DNA from: Sediminimonas sp.
GTDB lineage: Bacteria; Pseudomonadota; Alphaproteobacteria; Rhodobacterales; Rhodobacteraceae
DNA length: 64,000 nucleotides
Reading direction: 5' to 3'
NCBI RefSeq assembly: GCF_024637375.1
Contig: NZ_JAGXFK010000088.1
Coordinates: 1-64,000, forward strand
Positions 309 to 51,603 of this stretch are shown here, piece after piece. Every line of letters starts with the position of its first letter. Position 1 is the stretch's first letter. Below the pieces are notes generated by a model that searched no databases, was not told where the DNA came from, and saw only the letters and a program-made list of their open reading frames with translations. The position numbers and the translations under genes are program-made.

Positions 309-443
309 TGGTTGAAAGACCACCTCGACACCGGGGCCACGCTCGACGAGATCACCGACGCCCTGACTGACCTAGGGCTTGAGGTCAAAGGCGTCGAAAA
401 CCCCGCCGCGCGGTTGGCGGATTTCACCCTTGGCAACGCCACC
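309..443 (+). pseudogene. Relic of a second pheT 5' end (phenylalanyl-tRNA synthetase beta N-terminus)
   Basis: Forty-five codons read [15 protein letters not shown], then ALTDLGLEV, then [12 protein letters not shown]. They match the first 45 or so residues of the intact PheT that starts at 740 ([36 protein letters not shown]). The similarity begins abruptly at the Trp codon, without the MKFTL start, and stops after the equivalent of FTIG; what follows in frame is unrelated and soon ends. Several differences from the downstream gene are conservative replacements, so this looks like a remnant of a diverged or foreign pheT copy rather than a recent slip duplication. Two small inverted repeats precede it (252-267 and 266-288). 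The rest of 1-739 shows no other gene. Confidence 0.7.
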
Positions 444-515
444 CCTACACGTCTCTACCCGATCTCAACGCCTTCCTGCCGAACGCCCTGTTAACCACGC
501 CTCCGGGGCAAGCGG

Positions 516-559
516 CACCGACGCGATACCGCCAGGATACCGACGCTATACCGACATGG
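516..559 (+). repeat. Four-unit tandem array, 11-bp period, upstream of pheT
   Basis: Four contiguous 11-base units: CACCGACGCGA, TACCGCCAGGA, TACCGACGCTA, TACCGACATGG. The consensus is TACCGACGCGA. The same consensus, period and copy number occur upstream of lpdA on the other strand (51560-51603). In both places the units point towards the downstream gene. The array starts about 225 bp before the pheT start codon. The function is unknown; one unit per helical turn would suit cooperative protein binding on one DNA face. Confidence 0.65.
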
Positions 560-578
560 GTTTTTCAGCATTAACAAC

Positions 579-603
579 GGTTTGGGGTGATTCGCCCCAA
601 ACC
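579..603. repeat. 9-bp perfect inverted repeat in the pheT leader
   Basis: GGTTTGGGG (579-587) and CCCCAAACC (595-603) are perfect complements separated by TGATTCG. No T-run follows on either strand, so it is not a typical terminator. It lies between the 11-bp array and pheT, and could be an RNA hairpin in the leader or a protein site. Confidence 0.5.
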
Positions 604-739: not shown

Positions 740-3139
740 ATGAAATTCACCCTCGCCTGGCTCCGCGATCACCTCGACACAGAGGCGACGCTGAACGAGA
801 TTGCCGAGACCCTGACCGATCTGGGGCTGGAAGTGGAGGAGATTTCCAACCCGGCCGACAAGCTTCAGGGCTTTACCATCGGCAAGGTCTTGACCGCCGA
901 TAAACACCCGGATGCCGATAAACTCAAGGTTTGTCAGGTGCTTACGGATGAGGGTGAGAAACAGATCATCTGCGGCGCGCCCAACGCGCGCGAAGGCATC
1001 ACCGTGGTGATCGCCAGTCCGGGCACCTACGTGCCCGGCATCGACACCACCATCGGGGTGGGCAAGATACGCGGCGTCGAAAGCTTCGGGATGATGTGCT
1101 CCGAGCGCGAGATGGAGCTGAGCGACGAACACGAGGGCATCATCGAGCTGCCTTCGGGCGAGGTGGGCCAGGCGTTCACCGACTGGCTGGCCCAAAACGA
1201 CCCGGCCAAGGTCGACCCGGTGATCGAGATCGCCATCACCCCCAACCGCCCGGACGCGCTTGGCGTGCGCGGCATCGCGCGCGATCTCGCCGCGCGCGGG
1301 CTTGGCACCATGAAACCCACGCAAACGTTTGAAATAAAGGGTGATTCCCCCTGTCCCATCGGTGTGACCATCGACGATGACACGCGCGAAAACGGCTGCG
1401 AGCTGTTCGCCGGGCGGCTGATCCGGGGCGTGCAAAACGGCCCCAGCCCGCAATGGTTGCAGGACCGCCTGCGCGCCATCGGCCTGCGCCCGATCAGCGC
1501 GCTGGTGGACGTGACCAACTTCTTCACCTTCGACCGCAACCGCCCGCTGCACGTCTTCGATGCCGACAAGGTGCAGGGCAACCTGCGCGTACACCGCGCG
1601 CAGGGCGGCGAGGTGATGACGGGCCTCGACGAGAAGGAATATACCTTCGACGCAGGGCAGGTGGTGATCTCTGATGACAACGGCATCGAAAGCGTTGCCG
1701 GCATCATGGGCGGGCTCGCCACCGGTTGCACCGGGGAAACCGTGAACGTCTTTCTCGAAGCGGCGGTCTGGGACAGGGTGCAGATCGCCATGACGGGCCG
1801 CGCGCTCAAGATCAACTCGGACGCGCGCTATCGCAACGAGCGCGGCATCGACCCGGCCTTCAACATGGAAGCGATCGAGCTGGCCACGCAGATGATACTG
1901 GACTTGTGCGGCGGTTCTGCCACCGAGGTGACCACCGCCGGCGCGGTGCCTGACCTCGCGCGCGCCTATCGGCTTGACCCGGCCCGCGTGCAAAGCCTTG
2001 TCGGCATGGATATCCCCGCGGACACGCAGCGCGCGACGCTCGAGGCCCTGGGTTTCCGGCTGGAGGGCGACATGGCCTGGGTGCCCTCGTGGCGCCCCGA
2101 TGTGCAGGGCGAGGCCGACCTGGTGGAAGAGGTGGCGCGCATCGCCTCGCTGACCCGGCTGGAGGGCAAGCCGATGCCGCGGGCCCGGATGGGCGTGCCG
2201 CGGCCGATCCTGTCGGACATGCAAAAGCGCGAACAGGCGGCGCGCCGCACTACCGCCGCGTTGGGGTACAACGAATGCGTCAGCTACAGCTTTATCGATC
2301 GTGGCGCGGCGCGCCTGTTCGGCGGTGGCGATGAGGCGACCATGCTGGAAAACCCGATCTCGTCGGAAATGAGCCACATGCGGCCCGATCTGCTGCCGGG
2401 GCTGTTGCAGGCCGCAGCGCGCAACCAGGCGCGCGGCCACTCCGACATGGCGCTGTTCGAGGTCGGCCCCGCCTTTCACGGCGGCGAGCCGGGCGAGCAG
2501 CACCTGCAGGTGGCCGGGCTGCTGGTGGGGCGCACCGGGCCGCGCGACGTACACGGCGCCGACCGGGTGGTCGATCTGTTCGACGCCAAGGCCGATGCCG
2601 AGGCGGTGCTGTCCGCGCTTGGTGCACCCTCCAAGACGCAGATCATGCGCGACGGGCCCGACTGGTGGCATCCGGGGCGGCACGGGGTGGTGCGCCTTGG
2701 CCCCAAGAAGCAACTGGCGGTCTTCGGGGAACTACACCCGCGGGTTCTGGCGGCACTTGACGTGAAAGGGCCCGCCGTGGCCTTTACCGTGTGGCCGACC
2801 GAGATACCGCAGGCGCGGCGCAAGGCCACGACACGCCCGGCGCTCGAATTGCGCGATCTTCAGGCGGTGGAGCGCGACTTCGCCTTCGTGGTCGACCGCG
2901 ATGTCGAGGCGCTCGCCCTGGTCAACGCCGCGGCTGGCGCCGACAAGGGGTTGATCGACTCGGTGCATGTCTTCGACGAGTTCGTCGGCGACAGCCTTGG
3001 CGAGGGCAAGAAATCCATCGCGCTGACGGTGCGCTTGCAGCCCACCGAGAAGACGCTGAAGGAAGCCGATATCGAAGCGGTCGGCGCCAAGGTGATCGAG
3101 AAGGTGCAAAACGCCACCGGCGGCGTGCTGCGCGGCTGA
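740..3139 (+). CDS. pheT: Phenylalanine--tRNA ligase beta subunit
   Basis: Beta subunit of the cytoplasmic alpha2-beta2 phenylalanyl-tRNA synthetase, which charges tRNA-Phe and edits mischarged Tyr. The 799 residues match the bacterial family length (about 795-800). The order is typical: an N-terminal EMAP/OB-fold tRNA-binding domain (about 40-150, with the KHPDADKLKVCQV motif), B3/B4 editing domain (about 205-380, with the NEGC-like NENGCELFAGR stretch), B5 domain, catalytic-like core, and C-terminal FDX-ACB anticodon-binding domain (about 705-799, starting LQAVERDFAFVVD). The ATG is preceded by AAGG at a suitable distance, and MKFTLAWLRDHLDT is the standard start. pheS is not in the window. 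A broken extra copy of its 5' end lies just upstream. Confidence 0.98.
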   Translation: MKFTLAWLRDHLDTEATLNEIAETLTDLGLEVEEISNPADKLQGFTIGKVLTADKHPDADKLKVCQVLTDEGEKQIICGAPNAREGITVVIASPGTYVPGIDTTIGVGKIRGVESFGMMCSEREMELSDEHEGIIELPSGEVGQAFTDWLAQNDPAKVDPVIEIAITPNRPDALGVRGIARDLAARGLGTMKPTQTFEIKGDSPCPIGVTIDDDTRENGCELFAGRLIRGVQNGPSPQWLQDRLRAIGLRPISALVDVTNFFTFDRNRPLHVFDADKVQGNLRVHRAQGGEVMTGLDEKEYTFDAGQVVISDDNGIESVAGIMGGLATGCTGETVNVFLEAAVWDRVQIAMTGRALKINSDARYRNERGIDPAFNMEAIELATQMILDLCGGSATEVTTAGAVPDLARAYRLDPARVQSLVGMDIPADTQRATLEALGFRLEGDMAWVPSWRPDVQGEADLVEEVARIASLTRLEGKPMPRARMGVPRPILSDMQKREQAARRTTAALGYNECVSYSFIDRGAARLFGGGDEATMLENPISSEMSHMRPDLLPGLLQAAARNQARGHSDMALFEVGPAFHGGEPGEQHLQVAGLLVGRTGPRDVHGADRVVDLFDAKADAEAVLSALGAPSKTQIMRDGPDWWHPGRHGVVRLGPKKQLAVFGELHPRVLAALDVKGPAVAFTVWPTEIPQARRKATTRPALELRDLQAVERDFAFVVDRDVEALALVNAAAGADKGLIDSVHVFDEFVGDSLGEGKKSIALTVRLQPTEKTLKEADIEAVGAKVIEKVQNATGGVLRG

Positions 3140-50150: not shown

Positions 50151-51539
<1,389 letters not shown>

Positions 51540-51559: not shown

Positions 51560-51603
51560 TCGCGTCGGTATCGCGTCGGTATTTCGTCGGTGTCGCGCCG
51601 GTG
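51560..51603 (-). repeat. Four-unit tandem array, 11-bp period, upstream of lpdA
   Basis: Read on the minus strand towards lpdA the units are CACCGGCGCGA, CACCGACGAAA, TACCGACGCGA, TACCGACGCGA, directly followed by an A-run and the lpdA ribosome site. The consensus, period, number of units and orientation match the array before pheT (516-559). It lies between lpdA and the composite repeat at 51621. Confidence 0.7.

Follow-up and report, generated by a model that had tools for sequence, protein, structure and literature searches.

The window analysed here, a whole stretch of 64,000 nucleotides of Sediminimonas sp. DNA, carries an array of four 11-bp units immediately in front of the lpdA gene and another of the same design upstream of pheT. 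The question raised by this locus is which protein reads such arrays, and whether the reading concerns the adjacent gene or the chromosome as a whole. The features under consideration are as follows.

51560 to 51603, minus strand: array upstream of lpdA, four 11-bp units (sequence and TRF)
50151 to 51539, minus strand: lpdA, dihydrolipoyl dehydrogenase, 462 aa (gene call; name recognised by sequence)
516 to 559, plus strand: array upstream of pheT, four 11-bp units (sequence and TRF)
740 to 3139, plus strand: pheT, phenylalanyl-tRNA synthetase beta chain (gene call; name recognised by sequence)
490 to 496, plus strand: GTTAACC, a recurrent flank of the pheT array (sequence reading)
570 to 596, plus strand: ATTAAC ... 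GATTCGCC, the opposite recurrent flank of the pheT array (sequence reading)
309 to 461, plus strand: orphan N-terminal fragment of a second pheT, immediately preceding the pheT array (alignment)

On the minus strand the units at 51560-51603 read CACCGGCGCGA CACCGACGAAA TACCGACGCGA TACCGACGCGA, and the edge of the array lies 20 bp from the lpdA ATG at 51539, while the plus-strand units at 516-559 read CACCGACGCGA TACCGCCAGGA TACCGACGCTA TACCGACATGG. TRF returned a period of 11 for both arrays, with scores of 58 (lpdA) and 50 (pheT), and the window units, of the form (T)ACCGAC-N4/5, agree with the proposed consensus at 8 to 11 of the 11 positions. The initial annotation, which had described four contiguous 11-base units ending 20 bp before the lpdA start and a second array of equal period and unit number at 516-559, was correct on both counts. 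Single units are near chance in the window, with 35 matches at two or fewer mismatches against 27.8 expected.

Using three spaced cores with no more than one mismatch as the probe, 17 + 11 = 28 matches were obtained in the own 2.97-Mb genome, representing about 20 separate arrays, against 0 + 0 for the reversed control. Of 394 genomes of the family, 38 carried a match (seven or more in 21, one to three in 17, with a maximum of 270); the reversed control matched in 15 of the 394, in 13 of these once, and the other two, G237 and G171, were matched because of an array motif of their own. Enrichment of the spaced motif in related genomes, which had been named as the check on the array, is thus strong against the reversed control. 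The lpdA array is genuine and belongs to a system that extends over the genome. In a species-level collection the exact pattern was present in at least 110 stretches, and the organism names given for 80 of these are of Rhodobacteraceae type, which we take to indicate membership of that family. Salinihabitans flavidus and Pseudooceanicola spongiae are among the organisms with such arrays. Among 112 arrays in the stretches listed, four units were found in 69, three in 30 and five in 13. The array core is near-invariant, in part as built into the search, and the spacer is variable; downstream of the array, A/T-rich triplets are found repeatedly near +7, +17 and +28. On contigs C12, C27, C39, C47 and C82 of the own draft genome (G000), several arrays were located about 300-750 bp from the contig end.

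In the window and in loci L073-L182, GTTAACC was noticed about 25 bp off many arrays, on one or both sides, together with GATTCG. Within 10-70 bp upstream, GTTAA was present at 33 of 91 arrays and in 1 of 91 control stretches; downstream, the corresponding values were 25/91 and 2/91 for GTTAA, and 18/91 and 0/91 for GATTCG. These flanks resemble CtrA half-sites and the CcrM site. In another genome (L182) an array likewise stands 189 bp upstream of pheT, and the fragment at 309-461, perhaps a recombination remnant, is closer to the PheT of that genome (alignment score 178) than to the PheT of the window (150).

With genes called by a simple script, 106 of 112 arrays lay outside called genes. 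The 84 arrays that could be classified, those with a known gene on either side, comprised 26 in convergent, 26 in '--', 22 in '++' and 10 in divergent contexts (raw counts), indicating no consistent orientation to genes. The earlier proposal that arrays point towards the downstream gene therefore holds for both arrays of the window and fails as a general rule, the rule being orientation by GC skew. Arrays were closer to the stop codon in 23 of the 26 '--' contexts and in 11 of the 22 '++' contexts, and from this proximity and the context classes we conclude that many arrays are not placed like promoter operators. Those before lpdA, chorismate mutase and a soeB-like gene are situated 8-50 bp from start codons, and arrays so placed could act on expression. 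Some arrays were also observed in coding sequence, within valS (G002, G171) and within a tldD-like gene (G002), at loci L057, L065 and L319, where they are translated in the protein (the names valS, tldD-like, chorismate mutase and soeB-like were recognised by sequence).

In two chromosomes that each form a single contig, gaps of less than 10 kb between arrays are rare. For G295, a contig of 3.6 Mb with 70 arrays, we found 2 gaps below 10 kb against 12.75 expected (0/10000 nulls) and a spacing CV of 0.72 (p 0.002), 100 of 102 positions being used. For G419 (Pseudooceanicola spongiae) the gaps numbered 1 against 7.4 expected (p 0.003), with a CV that was not significant (p 0.10), and for contig C1 of G359 there were 0 against 2.4 expected (p 0.07; CV p 0.08). 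The spacing CV of 0.59 in G308, calculated among the matches listed, was not taken as evidence.

The strand of the arrays was compared with local third-position GC skew as a proxy for replication direction. The ACCGAC strand was the C-rich, G-poor strand on both flanks in a ratio of 94:17 overall, and in 24:0, 21:3 and 27:3 for G295, G308 and G419, respectively; within the own genus the bias was weak (12:7 in the own genome, 11:4 in a small set that also included its two relatives, G001 and G002). In G419 the strand agreed with the local skew in 19 of 20 sampled stretches, including places that differ from the remainder of the arm, a pattern expected from inversions. A bias of the same sign was found in genomes with other motifs, 20:2 for the G237/G171 set and 10:1 for ATGCAC-type arrays, the strand of the latter being that expected from the promoter of the ribbon-helix-helix (RHH) gene described below. 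The strand order in G295 gave no signal by itself (arc contrast p 0.12, switches p 0.67), the signal emerging with local GC skew; in G308 the strand switches gave p 0.01.

G237 and G171, the two genomes recovered by the reversed control, contain arrays of identical architecture with the cores GCAGCC and CCAGCCATACG. Three positions, inside valS, before chorismate mutase and before the soeB-like gene, are common to ACCGAC arrays and arrays of the G237/G171 type, and in L144 and L321 arrays with differing cores stand beside one gene pair. At the lpdA site, arrays were found in G001 and G002, and the 11-bp architecture with other cores was found in other genera, the core being GTGCAC in G303. The lpdA gene was matched in 383 of the 394 family genomes. 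In a less selected set of lpdA regions (30 taken, 28 readable) the array score reached 10 or more in 7, and in a chosen set of 40 (30 from RHH-locus genomes, 8 with ACCGAC matches and 2 others) arrays were present in 20, leaving three quarters of the former set and half of the latter with no array at lpdA. A total of 261 sites yielded 27 clusters with similar same-side neighbours (raw count), of which 2 fall within one genome and 4 within the genus of the window. The core motifs seen in Rhodobacteraceae arrays are GTCGGTAT, GTCGGCAT, TCGGAC, GTATGG, GGCTGC, GTCTT, GTGCAC, ATGCACA and CATATGA.

A candidate reader emerged from one recurrent context: in four genomes, the gene for a BrnA-type RHH protein is preceded by an array that lies 71-88 bp from the gene start. 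The own-genome candidate (G000:C24:24822-25163) is 114 aa long and matches PF14384 (BrnA antitoxin) with 42.9 bits against a cut-off of 26.1; the same family was matched by all 27 aligned RHH proteins at E <=0.001. RHH matches at E <=2.1e-18, a threshold set afterwards, were found in 16 of the 21 genomes rich in arrays and in 12 of the remaining 373; of the former group, G081, G106, G202 and G313 were without an RHH match at E 1e-6, and G292 had a weak one. In a set of 90 RHH loci, 30 given by the RHH search and 60 chosen down its list, an 11-bp array upstream of the RHH gene, defined by a score of at least 10 that exceeds those of ten other periods, was detected in 59, against 0 of 180 control stretches. 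The remaining 31 loci were without an upstream array by this score and period criterion, and some of them may be paralogs. TTAA was located 15-33 bp from the array towards the RHH gene in 48 of the 59 loci and in 3 of 59 controls.

No BrnT was found among 10 close or short same-strand neighbours scanned, which included a Phd/YefM antitoxin in G311 and a HicB-like protein in G013, and none was evident among the recurrent neighbour clusters (neighbours called in 75 of the 90 loci). Since the neighbours differ by subclade, the RHH gene seems to be an orphan in changing contexts; lepA-, cold-shock-, FabH-like- and carB-looking clusters were among those observed in loci L373-L462. The N-terminal part of the protein carries the invariant residues P37 and W40. 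AlphaFold, applied to the RHH protein of L086 as a single chain without relatives, gave a pLDDT of 67.7 with helices and no strand, the ribbon needing a dimer. A PDB sequence search with the RHH protein returned no match at E <=0.01, and in NCBIfam a single weak match, to PrgO, was obtained for 1 of the 27 proteins. In a class-level profile search, 39 of 385 genomes matched at E <=1e-10, including 3 of the 5 family genomes visible there (none in G081 and G101), and matches outside the family mostly covered the RHH core alone. More than one RHH match per genome was seen in G223, G243, G287, G367, G210, G390 and others.

The motif upstream of the RHH gene differs between lineages and is associated with three residues of the predicted beta-strand (K/R V T L X L D), namely 1, 3 and 5; in RHH folds the beta-strand residues are expected to face the DNA. 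For 16 genomes with arrays at both the RHH gene and lpdA, the similarity of the two motifs was 0.752 against 0.510 after permutation (0 of 20000 permutations), the own lpdA array being the best match in 11 genomes and the third in 4. G223 is a clear exception, and the lpdA arrays of both G223 and G131 are at odds with the RHH gene examined; second RHH copies may have a motif of their own, which may explain G223. When the 108 alignment columns were ranked after removal of overall identity, a partial correction for shared ancestry, K55 came first (partial r 0.469) and Y59 second (0.212), followed by P52 and E54 at ranks 3 and 4, with T57 as the 30th. Y59 was present in 14 of 15 loci from ACCGAC-rich genomes and in 3 of 75 other loci; G352, having Y59 and a degenerate upstream array, yet gave 1 genomic match.

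The correspondence was further examined by a search for TGCAC at 11-bp spacing in 32 genomes, of which 20 carry R55/T57 and 12 served for comparison (K55, or N57 as in G103 and G390). The 20 were picked from 32 R55/T57 loci, 14 of them already having TGCAC upstream of the RHH gene; the 12 loci left out were mostly those with another visible motif (GTACAC, GTACAT, GTACAG, CATATGA, GTATGAC or GGCTGC). TGCAC arrays were detected in 19 of the 20 genomes, with 4 to 97 matches (palindromic cores such as GTGCAC count on both strands), the exception being G122, which is 77% complete and gave none, and the 12 comparison genomes gave 0 to 2 matches. In the blind part of the test, 5 of 6 genomes without a visible upstream array were positive. 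G168 gave 12 reversed-control matches, derived from its own array, and G103 in the comparison set, with R55 but N57 and a GTCTT array, gave 1 TGCAC match. Residue 55 alone does not set the motif, because GTACAC, CATATGA, GGCTGC and others also occur with R55, and K-T-R strands likewise go with several motifs. The promoter arrays, the motif agreement, the covariation and this partly blind prediction together support the suggestion of the initial annotation that the units, one per helical turn, mark phased protein binding.

The arrays, their spacing, strand bias and positions, the switching of their motif and its covariation with the protein are direct observations on the sequences. From the covariation, the RHH protein very probably binds the arrays. 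Given such binding, a role in the chromosome is suggested by the placement of the arrays and is more likely than control of a regulon, although less certain than the binding itself. Taken as a whole, we consider it likely that the array is an operator array for an orphan BrnA-type RHH protein with a role in chromosome organisation or segregation. RHH dimers insert a two-stranded ribbon into the major groove, and four major-groove subsites at 11 bp would accommodate four RHH dimers on one face of the DNA. The protein would control its own gene through one array, as its promoter position suggests, and would occupy the other arrays, about 20 in this genome and, in relatives, as many as well over a hundred, which are widely spaced along the chromosome, frequently at the ends of genes, and follow the direction of replication. 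The stacked dimers would most likely bend and bridge DNA, by analogy with CdbA, and the function would most likely be chromosome organisation or segregation, not the regulation of the genes lpdA and pheT. In other genera the beta-strand residues would have changed and the sites followed, a number of them at an unchanged genomic position.

An alternative is an RHH protein that works as an ordinary global repressor of transcription, with the arrays as the operators of a large regulon. The array in the promoter region of the RHH gene itself and those 8-50 bp before the start codons of lpdA, chorismate mutase and the soeB-like gene are what such a repressor would be expected to have; against this, divergent promoters are the rarest context (10/84), 23 of the 26 '--' arrays lie closer to a stop codon, some arrays are inside the valS and tldD-like coding sequences, and the array strand follows GC skew, so that we regard this explanation as rather unlikely. 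It is distinctly improbable that another protein reads the arrays and that the RHH promoter is one more conserved site. The lpdA region is likewise a recurrent site (7/28 in the less selected set, 20/40 in the chosen set) and four array-rich genomes gave no RHH match, but the two RHH columns best linked to the motif are the beta-strand residues expected to face DNA, and TGCAC arrays were found as predicted in 5 of the 6 genomes without a visible upstream array.

Two further explanations appear very improbable, each to about the same degree. A small mobile repeat of the IS200/IS605 or REP-RAYT type, elements said to insert with replication orientation, would produce dispersed, short and strand-biased arrays with a patchy occupancy of the lpdA site, as observed here, but would not be expected at positions common to different genera despite different motifs, nor with wide spacing and a core conserved while the spacers vary. 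Polar sites that guide a DNA translocase or an enzyme of recombination, in the manner of KOPS or Chi, would agree with the strong strand bias relative to GC skew and with lineage-specific motifs; the phased units over about 44 bp, the tens to hundreds of sites, the covariation of the array motif with the RHH protein and the positions in G295 and G419, which by eye form no obvious pile-up, all argue against them. LexA and CtrA direct repeats, PhoB/OmpR boxes, Rho rut sites and REP/BIME elements were considered and set aside.

The proposed operator array of an orphan RHH protein shares features with several known systems. The likeness to BrnA antitoxins consists in the PF14384 domain and in the array before the own gene, which recalls antitoxin autoregulation; the protein differs in having no BrnT among the 10 scanned neighbours, in its N-terminal part with P37 and W40, and in its many genome-wide sites. 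MatP is an RHH-type protein that shapes the chromosome through dispersed matS sites, which are confined to the terminus region, whereas the arrays described here are chromosome-wide and strand-oriented. MetJ on the met boxes and omega on its heptad repeats are RHH proteins acting on 8-bp and 7-bp tandem repeats at a few promoters or on plasmids, in contrast to genome-wide arrays with a period of 11 bp. KOPS and AIMS are, like the arrays, strand-biased (94:17 here, with GC skew as proxy) and lineage-dependent chromosomal sequences; AIMS, described in PMC5993296 as 8-bp sequences with abundance and bias rising towards the terminus, differ from three to five 11-bp units of about 44 bp with a candidate RHH reader. 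A close parallel is CdbA of Myxococcus xanthus, an RHH protein with 569 genome-wide peaks on a direct repeat one helical turn apart, which bends DNA, has a modest effect on transcription and is important for chromosome organisation, according to PMC7156744. RHH type, many genomic sites and one-turn direct repeats are common to both, the binding here being deduced from sequence; CdbA differs in its moderate specificity and its two-repeat motif, compared with four-unit arrays, and the passages of PMC7156744 considered here make no mention of an orientation with replication, an even spacing or a switch between lineages. The literature covered on the unit sequence, Roseobacter 11-bp repeats, RHH proteins in Roseobacter, RHH nucleoid proteins in Rhodobacter, MatP and CdbA, BrnA operators, orphan BrnA and strand-oriented motifs, which leaves most subscription papers outside, contained no description of such a system.

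For the family as a whole, the balance tips slightly in favour of a widespread replication-oriented chromosome organiser in Rhodobacteraceae, made up of a single orphan RHH protein of antitoxin-like type and of four-unit arrays set far apart, tens to hundreds in number, a system of which the recognition code has been switched repeatedly and the sites rewritten in step, a number of them keeping their position. The present findings point to a protein as the reader of a chromosome-wide element in a bacterial family of high abundance, and make it testable whether a protein of the toxin-antitoxin type has been domesticated for chromosome architecture. They also supply a naturally occurring set of switches in protein-DNA specificity, with many sites following a single protein, and this set would allow a direct study of how a global DNA-binding protein can change its specificity without losing its sites.
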